Positions 6,196 to 42,451 of a DNA stretch of 51,963 nt are shown one piece after another. This DNA comes from Parcubacteria group bacterium. GTDB lineage: Bacteria > Patescibacteriota > Patescibacteriia > UBA9934 > GWF2-40-263. The position numbers and the translations under genes are program-made. How positions within the stretch are numbered: position 1 is the first letter of the stretch; every line of letters starts with the position of its first letter. Below the pieces are notes generated by a model. That model saw only the letters and a program-made list of their open reading frames with translations, did no database searches and was not told where the DNA came from. The stretch lies in assembly GCA_013204395.1 (NCBI GenBank), contig JABMNZ010000004.1, positions 1 to 51,963 on the forward strand. Reading direction: 5' to 3'.

Positions 6196-6702
6196 TCAGG
6201 AGCGTGCTGAGACCGTGAATGCCTCGTGGCCGTCTGGGTGGATGTAGACGGAACGGCTGGACGGGTTGCTCGACCAACTCACTGTTACCGAGCAACTTCT
6301 CGGGCGAGGGCTGAGAGCGCCCTTCACAGCTTTCTTGATGCTCTCCTTTGCCAAGCCCTTGTCGGTGGCTCCCTGCAGGATTCGCAGGACATTGCTCTTG
6401 AGCGTCTCATTGACGCCACGAGGAGGAATCGTCCTCTGTTGGTGAGGTAGTCGTGAGTCACGTCCGAACCCATCTCTCTGGGAGCGGGGTCGTACGGGTG
6501 TCATTGCGATCATCGCGATGACCCAGACGCGGAAGTCTTCGTTGTCGTGTCCGTCCTTCTGCCAAGCTCTGAAGCGAAGCCACATGGGCTCTCCTCGCTC
6601 CGTCACTGTTCTGGCAAGAACTTCCAGGTCTTGATCAGAGAAGCCCATCAGGCCCATCTGAAGACCCATCTTCCCACCGACCATTTCTTCTCGAAGCGAC
6701 AT
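6196..6702 (-). CDS. Orphan G+C-rich protein
   Basis: Unrecognised 168-aa product, rich in Arg and Ser in its C-terminal half, with no signal peptide or membrane span. The reading frame stays open further upstream, but the ATG at 6702 is chosen because a GGAGG precedes it by six bases and because the promoter (6749-6777) lies inside the longer version. Residues 90-125 are Arg/Pro-rich and a helical segment (LKSNVLRILQGATDKGLAKESIKKAV) follows. Codon use is clearly more G+C-rich than in the neighbouring penicillin-binding protein and C4orf33-like genes. It is monocistronic, flanked by terminators. Function unknown. Confidence 0.6.
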   Translation of the reverse strand: MSLREEMVGGKMGLQMGLMGFSDQDLEVLARTVTERGEPMWLRFRAWQKDGHDNEDFRVWVIAMIAMTPVRPRSQRDGFGRDSRLPHQQRTIPPRGVNETLKSNVLRILQGATDKGLAKESIKKAVKGALSPRPRSCSVTVSWSSNPSSRSVYIHPDGHEAFTVSARS

Positions 6703-6748
6703 GGCTGCCTCCAGTTGTGATACCCGATCAGACGAGTTTCGACAAAAG

Positions 6749-6777
6749 AATCTACCATAAAACCGCCTGTTTGTCAA
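6749..6777 (-). promoter_or_regulatory. Promoter of the orphan gene at 6196-6702
   Basis: Minus-strand TTGACA (6772-6777), 17-base spacer, TAGATT (6749-6754). The -35 hexamer lies in the loop and arm of the upstream terminator hairpin, so terminator and promoter physically overlap. Confidence 0.7.
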
Positions 6778-6795
6778 TGGAAACAGGCGGTTTTT
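6761..6795. terminator. Terminator hairpin at the end of the PBP gene
   Basis: AACCGCCTGTTT (6761-6772) and AAACAGGCGGTT (6781-6792) form a 12-bp stem with T runs on both sides. It follows the minus-strand penicillin-binding protein gene and contains the -35 box of the next gene. Confidence 0.75.
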
Positions 6796-6810
6796 GTTGT
6801 TTTCTTTGAC

Positions 6811-18712: not shown

Positions 18713-19900
18713 ATGCGTTACTTAATAATCGGAGGCGGAGTAGCTGGCACAACAGCGGCGGGAGAACTGCGTCGGTTGGATTCATCTGCTGAGATTACAA
18801 TTGTTTGTGATGAACATCACCCGTTATATTCGCGGGTATTGTTGCCCCTTTACTTAAACGGGAAGGTTGAGCGTGAGCGCATTTTTTTAAAAAAAGAGTC
18901 TTGGTATGCAGACCAAGAGATCGAGTGGCTGAGGGGGGATGTGGCGGTGAGGCTAAATGTAAAAAATAAGTTTGTAGAACTTTTGAGTGGTCGTGAGATT
19001 GAATATGACAAATTACTGCTCACTACAGGCAGTGAAGTGAGGGTTATTGATGCCGACATGCGTGGAGTGAGTTACTTTAGAACTCTTGATGACGCCGATC
19101 ACATGAGTCAATTGTTTTTAGAACAAGGTGAAGATGCTCATGGGGGGATTTATGGTGGAGGTTTTATTGCCTGTGAGTATTTGAATCTTTTTGGACATTT
19201 TAATATTCCCATTGTGCTTGCTCATCGTGGTGAGCATTTTTGGAATGGAACACTTGAGTCTAGCTCTGGTGAGTTGATGGCCAAGCATCTTACAGAGCAA
19301 GGAGTTGAGCTTTATTCTAATGCAGATTTTAAAGATCTTGTCGGTGATAAAGAACTGACTGGGTTTACGACAAATGCTGGTGACCACAAAGCAACGCTAC
19401 TTGGAGTAGGTATCGGAGTTGGCCCAGACCTTTCTTGGTTAAAAGATTCCGGTGTTGAGACTGGCGCTGGCATAAAAGCGGATGAATATTTAGAGACAAA
19501 TGTTCCAGGGATTTTCACAGCTGGAGACGTGGCCGAGTTTTATCATCCGATTCTTGGGAGGCAGTTAAAACTTGGAAATTGGATGAATTCTATGAGCCAA
19601 GGTAGGGCTGTGGCAAAAAACATGGTCGGCGATAAAGCCCCATTTGATTTAGTGTCTTCTTACGCTATGAATGTGTTGGGACTAGATCTGATCTTTGTTG
19701 GAGATGTTGAAAAAGCTCACTCAGACCAGATTCATGTTATCGGATCAGTGGAAGATGGGGGTATTACCCAGGTCCATGAACGTGATGGGAAGGTTGTGGG
19801 TGGTGTTTGTTTGAATAGAAATACTGATAGACCCACAATAACAACAGGAATTAAAGAAAAAGCTTCTGCGTCAGACATTGTCAACACTCTGTCAGGATAG
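18713..19900 (+). CDS. FAD-dependent pyridine-nucleotide-disulfide-type oxidoreductase (ferredoxin/rubredoxin reductase-like)
   Basis: The 395-aa product has two Rossmann motifs: FAD-binding YLIIGGGVAGTTAAGELRRL at the N-terminus and a second nucleotide site GGIYGGGFIACEYLNLFG near residue 144, plus the FAD-closing GIFTAGDVAEF near 263. This is the layout of ferredoxin, rubredoxin and NADH-nitrite reductase FAD subunits. The second site reads GGGFIAC rather than GxGxxG/A, so NAD(P) preference is unclear. The ATG at 18713 follows the ferredoxin stop by one base. It completes the desulfurase-scaffold-Nfu-ferredoxin-reductase operon. Confidence 0.85.
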   Translation: MRYLIIGGGVAGTTAAGELRRLDSSAEITIVCDEHHPLYSRVLLPLYLNGKVERERIFLKKESWYADQEIEWLRGDVAVRLNVKNKFVELLSGREIEYDKLLLTTGSEVRVIDADMRGVSYFRTLDDADHMSQLFLEQGEDAHGGIYGGGFIACEYLNLFGHFNIPIVLAHRGEHFWNGTLESSSGELMAKHLTEQGVELYSNADFKDLVGDKELTGFTTNAGDHKATLLGVGIGVGPDLSWLKDSGVETGAGIKADEYLETNVPGIFTAGDVAEFYHPILGRQLKLGNWMNSMSQGRAVAKNMVGDKAPFDLVSSYAMNVLGLDLIFVGDVEKAHSDQIHVIGSVEDGGITQVHERDGKVVGGVCLNRNTDRPTITTGIKEKASASDIVNTLSG

Positions 19901-19901
19901 A

Positions 19902-19930
19902 TTGACAATTTGGGGTTTACGTGATAAAAA
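19902..19930 (+). promoter_or_regulatory. Promoter of the 724-aa membrane protein gene
   Basis: TTGACA (19902-19907) begins one base after the reductase stop codon; 17-base spacer; TAAAAA (19925-19930) preceded by the extended -10 TGA. The leader of about 145 bases that follows is structured. Confidence 0.6.
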
Positions 19931-19932
19931 AA

Positions 19933-20000
19933 GGCCTTCTTTTCGTGCGGCGAGTGCCAAACATGAGAAGGTCTTTCTGTTTCCAATTGGATAATGCTAT
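19933..20000 (+). promoter_or_regulatory. Structured RNA leader with hairpin and shared TTTCTGTT-TTGGATA motif
   Basis: GGCCTTCT (19933-19940) pairs with AGAAGGTC (19966-19973), enclosing a small GGC-GAGT-GCC hairpin (19949-19958). The stem is followed by CTTTCTGTTTCC and TTGGATA (to about 19993). Almost the same tail follows the leader hairpin of the lipoprotein gene at 22529. The T-rich tail makes an attenuator possible. The rest of the leader to 20081 shows no further gene; the SD is GAAGGAGAA just before the ATG. Confidence 0.5.
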
Positions 20001-20081
20001 GCCCAGTGCACAGTGTTTTCAACGCGGAACCCCCTAGTACCTGAACACTTATGTGCGGAAAACCGTACGAAGGAGAACACG

Positions 20082-22256
20082 ATGGCTACAACCCACAGCA
20101 TTGCTGGGAGTTTGATCAAGGAGCAGTTCGAGACAAGGTCGCGTGTTGGAGTCGAGAAACTCCTGCGTGAAGGCATCGCCGACGGCGTGGACACAAACAG
20201 CCTTCTCAAGCGGCTGAGTGTCTACCTGCTGGACAAGAACGGTGACTTCATGAGCGCCGTTCGCGGACTTCCGGGTGCCGCTCAGGTGCCCCACATCGCG
20301 ACCATCGCGGTGGCGCATGTGCTCGAAGACACCAATCTCGTAGATTCGCTTCTGCCCGGCAACAACTCCGCGGCGCTGATGGGACTGAGGTTCGCCCTCA
20401 AGACCGGACTCGCTGGCGTCATCGCCGGAATCGGCGAAGGAGCCACCTCGTTCCTTCAGAGCGAGGTCGACGGTGTGGTGGATCAGCACGTCTCACCGGA
20501 CAACCGGATTGCGAGTGGTCGCACCGGACGTCTGGACGAGTTGCTCTACATCGCCAACGACCGCTTTGGTCTGCAGCGACCGCTCCTGATGGTGCGTGAT
20601 CCGAGCACGGGCGAAGTGCAGCTCACCGAGCGTGGCAACCCACGTGTGGAAGATGCCGAAGGCATGGCCTTCATCACCATGTGGGAACAGGTCAACCCAG
20701 AGACCGTCGAGACCAAGAAGACCAATGCCAAGGGCAGCGGTCCACCGGTCGTGACGGTCAAGAAGGCGACGCCCCCCTGGCGGCGCATCTGGCTCAGCGA
20801 GTACATCGCTCAGTTGAAGTCATCCCCGGGAACCAGCGTCGACGCCGGGCTCATTGCTCAGTTGGAGAAGCTGGTGGCACCCCCCAAGTCCTCGGACTGG
20901 GAAGAGGGCTACTCGGACGATACGCTGCTGGTTCAACGCGCCATCGCACAGTCGGCTCCGGATATGGGCCCGATCATGCGCACAGAGATGGAAGAGATGT
21001 GGAGGTCCGTGCGTTCGCGCAAGCCTCCCATGCGCCTGCTGAACTACCACATCGGCGGCACGTTCGCCTCCAAGATTACGGCTGAAGGGAAGCTCTCAGT
21101 GGGCGACCTGCAGGTCATGATCGATGCGATGGACCTGCACCTTCGCGGTGACCAGAAGTTCGCCACGCGCGTTCGCAAGATGTTCGCCCTGGGCAAGGAC
21201 TGGTTCACGGACGTGGATCTGACCCCCAAGCACCTGGTGGCGCTCATCGGGGGAACGATCGGGTTCTCAGTTCCGGTGTTCATCTGGATCAGCTACGTCA
21301 GCATCGGCCTGATGGGTCTGCTCATTGGCCTGTTCGCGCCCAGCGCGCCGATGGGTTCGCCCACATTCACGATCGCGATGCTCTCCGCCCTTGTCGGCAG
21401 CTGCATCGGATGGTCTTGCACCTGGATCTTCCCGGTCATTGAGAAGATCTGCAAGCCGCTGTTCGGTGACAGCGTGTCCCCGGATTGGCTCTCATCCCTT
21501 GGTAGGCGCATCAACGCGTTCTCTCTCGGGCTCGGAGCCAAGCTCCTGACGGTCATGATCCTCATGGAGTTCCCGATGGTGGCCAAGGTGGTCATCGTGG
21601 CGGTGGGAGCTCTTGGTTCATTCGGTGACGTCTTCTCGCTCACCGAGATGAAGGAAGATGCCAAGATCCGCAAGCTTCTCCTGCGAGGGTTGTGGTTCGG
21701 CACCTGGATCTTCACGGCGACCGGAATCGCTGTGGCACTGGGTCTTGGCCTGACTCGCGGTATCACCGGAGTCTTGATCAGCGGCCCCGCCATGTTCAGC
21801 GTGATTGCTGGTGTCGTTGGCGCCGTTGCAGCCACGATCGGTTACTTCCTGTTCACGACCATCATCGGTCAACTGCTTCTGCTGGCGATCTTCGTCGGTC
21901 TGGTGGCCTGGAAGATGACCAAGCTTGAACGAGTTTGGGACGGTAGCGCGTTCAAGATCCAAGAGATCGCAGTCTGGAGACCCACCCTCGGTGGAGTCGC
22001 CGTGCTCGCGCTGGTACTGATCCTCGCCGCACCTTTCGGTGCATGGTGGAAGACCACCATTGTGAGCAGGGGTATGGAAAGCACCTTCTCCTGGGTCCAG
22101 AGCTGGAACGATCCCGAACCTGCTTCCGCGTCCGCTCCGGTTGCGGAAGGGACGGCGAGCGGTACGTCACCTGCGCCGATTCCACCGGCCAAGCCGCCGA
22201 GCGCGGAGCAGTGTGCCAGCATCGCAACGATGTTCCGGCCCTCGAGTTGCAAGTAG
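20082..22256 (+). CDS. Large polytopic membrane protein of unknown function, G+C-rich
   Basis: Unrecognised 724-aa product. Residues 1-380 are soluble and mixed charged, with helical stretches and no motif I can name. From about 386 to 655 there are about seven to nine hydrophobic segments (for example ALIGGTIGFSVPVFIWISY near 386 and IFTATGIAVALGLGL near 546). The last 60 residues form an Ala/Pro/Ser-rich tail with two cysteines. The ATG has GAAGGAGAA at an ideal distance; longer starts would enter the structured leader. Codons ending in G/C dominate, unlike the Fe-S operon just upstream. It heads a block of three such genes; a surface apparatus or transport role is only a guess. Confidence 0.75.
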   Translation: MATTHSIAGSLIKEQFETRSRVGVEKLLREGIADGVDTNSLLKRLSVYLLDKNGDFMSAVRGLPGAAQVPHIATIAVAHVLEDTNLVDSLLPGNNSAALMGLRFALKTGLAGVIAGIGEGATSFLQSEVDGVVDQHVSPDNRIASGRTGRLDELLYIANDRFGLQRPLLMVRDPSTGEVQLTERGNPRVEDAEGMAFITMWEQVNPETVETKKTNAKGSGPPVVTVKKATPPWRRIWLSEYIAQLKSSPGTSVDAGLIAQLEKLVAPPKSSDWEEGYSDDTLLVQRAIAQSAPDMGPIMRTEMEEMWRSVRSRKPPMRLLNYHIGGTFASKITAEGKLSVGDLQVMIDAMDLHLRGDQKFATRVRKMFALGKDWFTDVDLTPKHLVALIGGTIGFSVPVFIWISYVSIGLMGLLIGLFAPSAPMGSPTFTIAMLSALVGSCIGWSCTWIFPVIEKICKPLFGDSVSPDWLSSLGRRINAFSLGLGAKLLTVMILMEFPMVAKVVIVAVGALGSFGDVFSLTEMKEDAKIRKLLLRGLWFGTWIFTATGIAVALGLGLTRGITGVLISGPAMFSVIAGVVGAVAATIGYFLFTTIIGQLLLLAIFVGLVAWKMTKLERVWDGSAFKIQEIAVWRPTLGGVAVLALVLILAAPFGAWWKTTIVSRGMESTFSWVQSWNDPEPASASAPVAEGTASGTSPAPIPPAKPPSAEQCASIATMFRPSSCK

Positions 22257-22295
22257 GCTCAAAGCGGCCAAGGTCATTCGACGTTTGACCAACGC

Positions 22296-22338
22296 GGTCC
22301 GTTAATCACTGTTTCACAGTGGAAAACGGGCCTTTTTT
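22296..22338 (+). terminator. Intrinsic terminator after the 724-aa membrane protein gene
   Basis: GGTCCGTT (22296-22303) pairs with AACGGGCC (22325-22332) with one G-U pair, stacked on an inner CACTG/CAGTG hairpin, followed by TTTTTT. Confidence 0.8.
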
Positions 22339-22349
22339 GTTTGTTTAGA

Positions 22350-22378
22350 TTGACAAAAACGCCATTTTCTGCTATTAT
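22350..22378 (+). promoter_or_regulatory. Near-consensus promoter of the lipoprotein gene
   Basis: TTGACA (22350-22355), 17-base spacer, TATTAT (22373-22378). A GTTCA-TTAG-TGAAC hairpin (22384-22397) lies right at the predicted transcription start. Confidence 0.85.
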
Positions 22379-22401
22379 CCCGTGTTCATTAGTGAACTAT
22401 T

Positions 22402-22500
22402 TGAGGGGTCAGATAAGGCATAGATGCATACAGATATCCATCGAGGTATCTGTAATCCCCTCGGCATCCATGCCTTTTCTGTTCCCTTGGATAGATCTGT
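22402..22500 (+). promoter_or_regulatory. Riboswitch-like leader with pseudoknot potential and terminator-like stem
   Basis: GGCATAGATGC (22417-22427) pairs with GCATCCATGCC (22464-22474), a stem followed by TTTTCTGTTCCC. Inside, ACAGATA (22430-22436) pairs with TATCTGT (22447-22453); its loop contains CGAGG (22442-22446), which can pair with CCTCG (22459-22463) as a pseudoknot. An upstream GAGGGG (22403-22408) can compete for CCCCTC (22457-22462). Competing pairings plus a T-tailed stem are the design of a regulatory switch. The tail continues TTGGATA as in the upstream leader. I do not recognise a named riboswitch class. Confidence 0.55.
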
Positions 22501-22528
22501 GAACGAACAACCCCGAAAGGAGGCCCAG

Positions 22529-23149
22529 ATGCGAAAGCACTTCTGGCTGATCTTCGTCCTGGCTGTGGCAAGTGTCATGGCAGGATGTGCGACTGTGACC
22601 CGGACTGTCGATACCACTCCGGTGGATCTCGACGAAGACGGCGAGGCCGAGACGACGCGCGAGAGCGTGAGCGTCCGGTACGTGGGGAGCTTGCCTCCCC
22701 GTCCCTCCGTGATCCTGAGTGCGTCCGACGACACTCCGAGCAAGGCTCTGGAGCTAGCTGGACGCAGCATCGACGCCGGCATGGTGACCAACGTCATCAC
22801 CAATGAGCACGGCGTTTCCGTGAGCGCCACTCCGGTGCCTGTCTACGGTAGCCGCTACTACGGCAGCCCTGGCACGTACGCACCAAACGGTGGCGTGCAC
22901 TCGGGAGTGGACGTCGTCCGCATGCCCGACGGCACCTACCAACGTGTCGGTGGCGGGAGTTCGCTCCCTCAGCTGCAGACCACAAGGGTCGTCAGCATTC
23001 CGGCAACGCCGGTTCGGGTCACTACTTCTTCCAGCAGTGGTGAGGTGAAGTGTCCCGAGAAGGGGAAGCCCGCCTACGGCACCCCCGAGTTCGACGCCTG
23101 CGTCGAGCCGGCGCTGAAGGCGGCCTTGGAGCTGTCACACGGTCACTAG
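22529..23149 (+). CDS. Putative lipoprotein, G+C-rich, unknown function
   Basis: The 206-aa product has a lipoprotein signal: basic MRKH, a hydrophobic stretch and lipobox VMAGC with Cys at residue 20. The mature part is Thr/Ser/Val/Pro-rich with no membrane span and contains Tyr/Gly-rich turns (PVYGSRYYGSPGTYAPNGG near residue 95). The C-terminal 30 residues (VKCPEKGKPAYGTPEFDACVEPALK) hold two Cys that could form a disulfide. The ATG is preceded by GAAAGGAGG. No family recognised. It follows its own promoter and structured leader, between the large membrane protein and a secreted protein of the same base composition. Confidence 0.75.
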   Translation: MRKHFWLIFVLAVASVMAGCATVTRTVDTTPVDLDEDGEAETTRESVSVRYVGSLPPRPSVILSASDDTPSKALELAGRSIDAGMVTNVITNEHGVSVSATPVPVYGSRYYGSPGTYAPNGGVHSGVDVVRMPDGTYQRVGGGSSLPQLQTTRVVSIPATPVRVTTSSSSGEVKCPEKGKPAYGTPEFDACVEPALKAALELSHGH

Positions 23150-23152
23150 GTC

Positions 23153-23236
23153 GGTGTGGGAATAAGCCTGCTACCGACCAAGGCTCTTTTACAGGAGCCA
23201 CAAAAATTGGTCGGTCAGGCTGGTCTTGACCCACAC
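23153..23236 (+). ncRNA. Nested three-tier RNA stem in the lipoprotein-to-secreted-protein spacer
   Basis: Outer stem GTGTGGG (23154-23160) with CCCACAC (23230-23236); middle stem AGCCTG (23165-23170) plus ACCGACCA (23173-23180) with TGGTCGGT (23208-23215) plus CAGGCT (23216-23221), 14 bp with one two-base bulge; inner hairpin GGCTC (23182-23186) with GAGCC (23195-23199). The whole 84-base element ends directly before the CGGAG ribosome-binding site of the gene at 23247. No terminator tail is present, so control of translation or mRNA processing is more likely than attenuation. No known class recognised. Confidence 0.6.
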
Positions 23237-23246
23237 GGAGTACCCC

Positions 23247-24173
23247 ATGAAGAACATCACCCTGATCGCGCTGGCCCTGGTCACCGCGATGATGAGCATT
23301 CCCAGCGCACAGGCGCAGGACACCAAGGCCCTGGCGATCATCCGGTACTGCTCCGAGCAGCACCCGGACAAGGGTCGCCCCTACAGCGACTGTGTGAGTG
23401 GCAAGAGGATGAGGGCCGCAGAGCTCGAGCGAGATGTTCTGGCCCGAGAGCTCGAGGAATCTCGCCGCGAACTGTACGACCTCAAGATGGAGGTCGAGGA
23501 CGGCCGTTCGCTGGACGCGGACGTGATCGTGGAGCTCGGTCGGTTGACCGTATTGGTCGAGAGCCTTCAGGCCCAGGTGGCAGCAGCGCCCGCGCCCGCC
23601 ACAGTCCAGACGCCACCGCAGCCGGTGTCGTCGCCCCAGCCGCCCGCAGGGACGGTGTACGCCACCACAGGCGTTCCGTACCGAGTGGTGCCCCAGCTCT
23701 CCGTGATGTCGATCTACCCGATCGACGAGCGCAGTGTTGCTCACATCGACAAGTTGGACTACATCAAGTCCCACGCACGGTGCGGTGGACAGTCCGGCGA
23801 CCTGCTCATGATCACCAACCACGGCGTTCCCATGTCCGTCACAGCTCCGGCTGGACGTCAAAGTGGGTTCGTCGAGGTGTACGTGGATATGAGCGGAAAC
23901 GGGGTCCCCGACGGCGTGTACAAGGTCATGGATCCCTCGATGCAGGACGACGTGTACTTCACCTGGAGGCAGGGTGACGACATCAGGTTCGTCTACCTGA
24001 ACGAAGGCCCGCCCATCGAAGTCCCCGGACTTCGTGTCCAGAGCATGTGGAAGTACCCGCGCTCAGGCATGAAGGGTTGTGACCTCGATGATCTCCGGCG
24101 TGACACGGCGCTGGAGAGGAACGATGAAGGTCGTCCCCTTGGCTTGTACGCCATGGGTTGGCCCGTCCGATGA
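23247..24173 (+). CDS. Secreted coiled-coil protein of unknown function, G+C-rich
   Basis: The 308-aa product has a clear signal peptide, residues 1-23 ending AQA, with cleavage before QDTK. Residues about 58-115 are a charged heptad-like helix (AELERDVLARELEESRRELY), probably a coiled coil. A Pro-rich linker (PQPVSSPQPPAGT) leads to a C-terminal domain (about 145-308) with four cysteines and beta-strand-like segments (FVEVYVDMSGNGVPDGVYK, YFTWRQGDDIRFVYLNEG). No family recognised. The ATG at 23247 begins the signal peptide and follows CGGAG. Third gene of the block, co-transcribed with the lipoprotein unless the nested stem interrupts it. Confidence 0.75.
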   Translation: MKNITLIALALVTAMMSIPSAQAQDTKALAIIRYCSEQHPDKGRPYSDCVSGKRMRAAELERDVLARELEESRRELYDLKMEVEDGRSLDADVIVELGRLTVLVESLQAQVAAAPAPATVQTPPQPVSSPQPPAGTVYATTGVPYRVVPQLSVMSIYPIDERSVAHIDKLDYIKSHARCGGQSGDLLMITNHGVPMSVTAPAGRQSGFVEVYVDMSGNGVPDGVYKVMDPSMQDDVYFTWRQGDDIRFVYLNEGPPIEVPGLRVQSMWKYPRSGMKGCDLDDLRRDTALERNDEGRPLGLYAMGWPVR

Positions 24174-24246
24174 TTCTCGCGGCTCGTACGCGAGGACCCC
24201 CCAACCGCTTACGGCGGTCACGGCCTCTGAAAGGAGGTACAACGCG

Positions 24247-24308
24247 CACCCTTGAGTGATCCCAATGATGACGAAGTCATTGTGGATCCTCAAGGGTGTT
24301 GTTTTTTT
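24247..24308 (+). terminator. Long terminator ending the G+C-rich block
   Basis: CACCCTTGAG (24247-24256) pairs with CTCAAGGGTG (24289-24298), continuing inward with GATCC/GGATC and ATGAC/GTCAT, followed by TTGTTTTTTT. An unused AAAGGAGG (24231-24238) precedes it with no fitting reading frame. Confidence 0.85.
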
Positions 24309-41563: not shown

Positions 41564-42451
41564 ATGTCGCAAGAAGAAATGGTCGAGAGACCGAGAATGA
41601 CCTACGAGAGGCTACTCGCAAGGATGGCCGATTCGGATGTGTCTGACGATGAACTGGTCGCTCTGTTGAGACTGGCAAGGTACACACCTCCGCCCGGTGG
41701 CACGAAAGAGCAGTCGATCAAGGAGTTGATCTTGCTGCTGTTGCGCCATGCGCGCGAAGAGGAGTCCGATGGTGTTGGTAGACCCACCAAGGTGGGAGCT
41801 GCCGCGCGCATTCAGCTGGCACGTCAGCTAGTTTTGCTTACGCCCAGCGTGATGGGTGTGTCGGAGTGGCACGGAATCAATCAGGTCCTCAAAATGTGTG
41901 TCAATCAAGTGGTCGCGTTCTACGCGGAGCACCGCTGGACGCTTAGTGGCAACGACGCGGACAAGAAGGTCGTTCACACGTTCCTCTCCAACCTCTGGTG
42001 GTTCGAGATGAAGACGCGTGCGGGCTACGTGCCTATCGGCACGATCGAGCAGGCGATGGTCATGACGGATCACGTGGAGATGCTCCGACACCACTCCGTC
42101 TGCACCACGATTCCATTGCTGTTCAGCGCCATCCGAGCGATCGACGGCGAACAGGTATGGCCACGGCCGTCGTACGACTGGTCAGGGTGGTTCCATCTCC
42201 CCCCAACGGGCCTCCAAGGCGAGTACTTGATCCTGCCGTACGAGCGTGAGGACATTGTGGGCGCCATGAGAAAAGAAGAGGATCTGTTCCACGAGAACGT
42301 CCGCCACATCATGGCTATGCTGGGTGCCAAGGAGAGGAACACACCTCTGGCAGACACCTTGCGGTTCCTCCTTTCACGAGCCGTCTACTTCCAGCACTAT
42401 GTCAGTCGACATGGTCTGCAGGGACTGGTGATCAACGAGCAGCTTCACTAG
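41564..42451 (+). CDS. Orphan G+C-rich protein
   Basis: Unrecognised 295-aa cytoplasmic protein, mainly helical. Residues 1-75 are acidic with a helical-hairpin look (MADSDVSDDELVALLRLAR, KEQSIKELILLLLRHAR); a linker GVGRPTKVG and a larger domain with many Trp, His and Met follow (FLSNLWWFEMKTRAG, WPRPSYDWSGWFHLPP). The ATG at 41564 has AGAAGGAG seven bases upstream; a longer frame would include the promoter. G/C-ending codons prevail as in the 20-24 kb block. It is an isolated unit between tRNA-Gly and a terminator. Confidence 0.7.
   Translation: MSQEEMVERPRMTYERLLARMADSDVSDDELVALLRLARYTPPPGGTKEQSIKELILLLLRHAREEESDGVGRPTKVGAAARIQLARQLVLLTPSVMGVSEWHGINQVLKMCVNQVVAFYAEHRWTLSGNDADKKVVHTFLSNLWWFEMKTRAGYVPIGTIEQAMVMTDHVEMLRHHSVCTTIPLLFSAIRAIDGEQVWPRPSYDWSGWFHLPPTGLQGEYLILPYEREDIVGAMRKEEDLFHENVRHIMAMLGAKERNTPLADTLRFLLSRAVYFQHYVSRHGLQGLVINEQLH

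Follow-up and report, generated by a model that had tools for sequence, protein, structure and literature searches.

The leaders of two neighboring genes in an uncultured ultrasmall bacterium (Candidatus Uhrbacteria) are probably two separate, private cis-regulatory elements: leader 1, upstream of a membrane protein gene, would act as a long-range translational off-switch, and leader 2, upstream of a lipoprotein gene, as a conserved binding or stability hairpin. Both lie in the window, i.e. the whole 51,963-nucleotide stretch of DNA analyzed, which belongs to a 1.1 Mb genome (G000); the genome of its sister species (G006) was deposited under the name Candidatus Uhrbacteria BH28. Conservation, covariation, linkage to gene starts and predicted occlusion of the start site were computed. 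The genes of the locus are:

20082..22256, + strand: gene 1, membrane protein of 724 aa, no assigned function
22529..23149, + strand: gene 2, lipoprotein, with a signal peptide ending in a lipobox-like GC
23247..24173, + strand: gene 3, secreted protein, transcribed in the same direction as genes 1 and 2

This set of membrane protein, lipoprotein and secreted protein genes recurs by position across one Patescibacteria family, a signal-peptide-bearing gene also occupying the position of gene 3 in the relatives. Genes 1 and 2 had been described in the first-pass annotation as adjacent orphan genes, a label dispelled by relatives found in synteny behind the same upstream ORF of about 400 aa: of the 73 genomes in the order, 18 contain relatives of gene 1 and 5 contain relatives of gene 2 recognized by sequence, and by position relatives of gene 2 occur in most of the family. 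The upstream ORF was present in all 19 relatives whose contig allowed a look, and the window copy reads, from its sequence, as a putative pyridine-nucleotide oxidoreductase. No phage match was found for the locus of genes 1 and 2.

Neither a Pfam domain nor a solved relative above noise was detected for gene 1, and an AlphaFold model built from two sequences (mean pLDDT 41) was discarded as unusable. Two cysteines very close to the C-terminal end (C711 and C723 of the window protein) are invariant among the gene 1 proteins and possibly form a disulfide. The region is also one of several GC-rich gene islands (20000-24300; 41564-42451, + strand; 6196-6777, - strand; 34-471, - strand), with about 60% GC versus about 45% for the genome and a GC3 of 0.77 in gene 1; this GC richness occurs in most relatives as well, but not in G005, G022 and G026. 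Most genes of the GC-rich islands have near-consensus TTGACA-17-TAnnnT promoters. That of the GC-rich gene at 6777 (- strand) has its TTGACA in the loop of a terminator-like hairpin (CCGCCTGTTTCCATTGACAAACAGGCGG; 6750-6810, - strand), which belongs to the preceding gene.

Both leaders begin at a near-consensus promoter, and in the aligned relatives TTGACA-17-TAnnnn likewise precedes leader 1. Together with this promoter, the aligned leader 1 orthologues share CUUCUnUGUGCGGCnnnnGCC, usually AGAAGGU(C)UUU, and GCCGCACAnGGAG just before the start codon. In the window, the promoter and the parts of leader 1 are:

19902..19930, + strand: gene 1 promoter, TTGACA, 17 nt, TAAAAA, from a consensus scan
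19935..19951, + strand: segment 1, CCUUCUUUUCGUGCGGC, the anti-Shine-Dalgarno strand, located at the mRNA 5' end or close to it, complementary to 20063-20075
19956..19958, + strand: GCC, conserved in most leaders, placed by predicted folds
19966..19976, + strand: segment 2, AGAAGGUCUUU, 3' arm of the 5' hairpin with its U-run
20038..20042, + strand: segment 3, UACCU, from the lowest-energy folds of G000 and many relatives
20053..20068, + strand: local hairpin GUGCGG-AAAA-CCGUAC just upstream of the Shine-Dalgarno sequence (SD), seen in the sequence
20063..20075, + strand: segment 4, CCGUACGAAGGAG, partner of segment 1, including the SD AGGAG at 20071-20075

The evidence for a switch in leader 1 is a long-range helix, found in 17 species, that joins the 5' end of the mRNA (CUUCUnUGUGCGGC) to bases of the SD and those preceding it (GCCGCACAnGGAG). 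RNAalifold, given seven short leaders and no prior input, returned this 5'-end:SD helix, of 13 pairs, as its sole helix. Double compensatory changes were found at five of the eight inner pairs (13 distinct rows). The first pair changes from U-A to C-G in the window genome and its sister species, and other compensations are C-G to U-A (G029), G-C to A-U (G037), G-C to C-G (G029, G030) and C-G to G-C (G030). In the alignment 93% of the cells are paired. This covariation was matched by 0 of 500 shuffles and approached by no slid register; because the rows were aligned manually and come from related sequences, the shuffle counts are not to be read as probabilities. Matched 5'/SD partners also pair better than permuted ones (p ~0.00015, 20000 permutations), a value that is indicative only because of the same relatedness.

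The conserved helix includes the SD itself, and in the thermodynamic ensemble pairing of the SD with the 5' end is predicted with a probability of at least 0.59 in 15 of the 17 leaders; the strongest pairing is predicted for G010 and G027. The predicted cost of opening the SD falls in 16 of the 17 when the first 22 nt are removed. The 5'-end:SD helix is kept even in G005, G037 and G040, in which the 5' hairpin is decayed. The window leader is itself a weak case, with a pairing probability of 0.04 for a start at 19931, although its lowest-energy fold does occlude the SD if transcription begins at 19933 or 19936; the probability for G025 is also low (0.22). When the 5' segment alone was shuffled, opening costs were often comparable in G000, G006, G025 and G031, and the GUGCGGC part of leader 1 has been lost in G022 and G026.

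Several strands of leader 1 have more than one partner in the predicted folds. The conserved GCC pairs with a local GGC or, in many of them, with a downstream GGC, and in many AGAAGGU pairs with a downstream ACCUU instead of with its 5' arm. With segment 1 paired to the SD, the AGGU of segment 2 is predicted to pair with UACCU. The GUGCGG-AAAA-CCGUAC hairpin competes with segment 1 for CCGUAC, and similar GCGGC/GCCGC hairpins occur in many relatives.

In the mechanism that we propose, the first ~17 nt of the mRNA would pair with a stretch that starts just before the SD and extends into it, in a helix that would close leader 1 and hide the start site, and opening of this helix would allow translation of gene 1. 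Opening might occur through capture of the 5' strand by its own hairpin during transcription, through removal of the 5' end, or through some other factor. The transcription start, the repressive effect of leader 1 on translation and the trigger we infer. Leader 1 could instead serve mainly to protect the mRNA 5' end against 5'-dependent RNases, with SD occlusion as a side effect, an explanation that we regard as unlikely: the 5' end is predicted to be paired, in the local hairpin or in the long-range helix, and the strong promoters suggest a highly expressed mRNA, but a local hairpin would suffice for protection, whereas covariation keeps a partner that lies next to and inside the SD.

The 5' hairpin of leader 1 is most likely, at least in part, the terminator of the upstream gene, because it often decays where another terminator exists. 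In 11 relatives the CCUUCU:AGAAGG stem and its U-run lie no more than about 55 nt from the upstream stop codon, with no other terminator found in this short gap, and the U-run is kept in all 11 of them. Six relatives have a separate terminator in the gap, found by scan in G029, G030, G034 and G037 and by eye in G005 and G040, and AGAAGG-plus-U has been lost in four of the six (G005, G037, G040 and G034).

Leader 2 lies between gene 1 and the lipoprotein gene, with the following features:

22286..22345, + strand: intrinsic-terminator-like hairpin and T-run after gene 1 (GGTCCGTT...AACGGGCCTTTTTT), read in the sequence
22350..22378, + strand: gene 2 promoter, TTGACA, 17 nt, TATTAT, from a consensus scan
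22395..22495, + strand: long irregular hairpin of leader 2, conserved, about 100 nt, basis of model R1
22403..22408, + strand: GAGGGG, at the stem base, complement of the bulge
22454..22463, + strand: bulge AAUCCCCUCG, with CCCCUC, nearly invariant in the alignments

The first of these was missed by a narrow-loop terminator scan. Seven species (G000, G006, G029, G030, G005, G022 and G026) have the long hairpin before the lipoprotein gene, and leader 2 has a z-score of -5.7. The stem of the hairpin comprises 27 pairs, nine of them changed on both sides, with 94% of the cells paired (0 of 500 shuffles); in the apical stem, both-sided changes occur at all nine of nine pairs among six sequences. 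The U-rich 3' arm is kept in 7 of 7 species. The gene 2 leaders of the other relatives are short or have different hairpins. Our best guess is that leader 2 is a binding or stability element. Most gene 2 transcripts seem to start with a CGUUC-like stretch a few bases past the -10 box, which in the window is a palindrome (GTTCATTAGTGAAC, 22380-22397) that might act as an operator or form a 5' hairpin.

Both leaders might also follow one design, with the mRNA 5' terminus as anti-Shine-Dalgarno strand and a hairpin in between, as a general translational control of a surface-protein locus in Patescibacteria. We hold this to be doubtful: the 5' end of the gene 2 leader is predicted to pair with the SD in four relatives (G022, G026, G023 and G024), but not in the window.

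Somewhat less probable still is that both hairpins are transcription attenuators, each a stem and U-run opened by an alternative helix. In leader 1 AGAAGG followed by UCUUU, and in leader 2 GGCAU...AUGCC followed by UUUUCUGUU, look terminator-like, and the GAGGGG of leader 2 could pair alternatively with the CCCCUC bulge. However, the terminator scan finds none at either hairpin on the + strand, and the U-run of leader 1 has been lost in four of the six relatives with a separate upstream terminator, and therefore seems to serve the upstream gene. The GAGGGG:CCCCUC alternative helix or pseudoknot, while mostly paired, lacks any compensatory change and is disrupted in some of the species, and was rejected.

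The first-pass annotation had attributed both leaders to a common regulatory RNA element, on the basis of similar strings that are present where it placed them (TTTCTGTTTCCAATTGGATA at 19974-19993 and TTTTCTGTTCCCTTGGATA at 22475-22493), each following or ending a 5' hairpin that does exist in its leader. In local alignment the two leaders score 24 against a shuffle mean of 14.7, and this score is reached by 7 of 2000 dinucleotide-shuffled leader pairs, the pair having been preselected by that annotation; the 20-nt resemblance is thus only mildly unusual. The motif pattern occurs only at these two sites in the window genome and at none in 42 family relatives. In the sister species both leaders are present and alignable, and their mutual similarity is reduced to TTTCTGTT (8 nt), with a pair score (16) close to the shuffle mean. 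The motif of leader 1 lies 3' of the hairpin and consists mostly of variable sequence; that of leader 2 forms the 3' arm of the long conserved hairpin.

Covariance models of leader 2 (R1) and leader 1 (R2) were run against 286 genomes from the class and 40 from the family. As the annotation had proposed to look for, matches with compensatory changes were recovered before orthologous genes in relatives. In neither genome set did R1 or R2 match the leader of the other, and neither had a second site in the window genome, except for the opposite strand of the same hairpin. The weak R1 matches inspected were unrelated repeats or hairpins; of the weak R2 matches inspected, several were further leader 1 sites and two were not, and three weak matches lay in other families (G055, G255 and G288). 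The part of the earlier claim that stands is that both leaders carry regulatory-looking structure. The single shared element does not, because only 8 nt of the resemblance are left in the sister species and the models do not cross-match; the similarity between the leaders is chance or weak convergence. A common RNA before both genes, read by one factor, is thus highly improbable, even with a 5' end pairing with the SD in both leaders of some relatives, the conserved positions and folds also differing between leaders.

The preferred reading of two separate elements has no counterpart in Rfam: at gathering cut-offs only tRNA and rRNA were reached in the window, and a lax search of 19880-22600 gave chance-level matches only, with no riboswitch or thermometer family. 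Known Rfam leader and riboswitch families were rejected for both leaders on the lack of a match. No description of a native RNA regulator in Patescibacteria was found in a literature search of incomplete coverage. If this reading is correct, the leaders would represent two cis-regulatory RNAs, specific to this lineage and supported by covariation, that are linked to a conserved set of membrane protein, lipoprotein and secreted protein genes with no assigned function. A native translational control element might help in Patescibacteria, where inducible expression is still lacking (PMC11665869).

Among known systems, leader 1 resembles the mRNAs of type I toxins, in which pairing, either metastable or long-range, conceals the SD (AapA3, PMC6733600; timP, PMC11228461), in having an SD-occluding leader, proposed mutually exclusive folds and covariation support. 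Type I toxins are short hydrophobic ORFs, and leader 1 is not assigned to this class because its gene encodes a membrane protein of 724 aa and no antisense RNA is known. Translational riboswitch expression platforms act by strand exchange over the SD (reviewed in PMC10907184) and, like leader 1, have a strand with more than one possible partner and an SD sequestered in one state; unlike them, leader 1 has no recognized aptamer-like conserved domain. Intrinsic terminators and attenuators share with both leaders a hairpin followed by a U-rich run, but in leader 1 the pairing with the best support is that between the 5' end and the SD, not a terminator stem.
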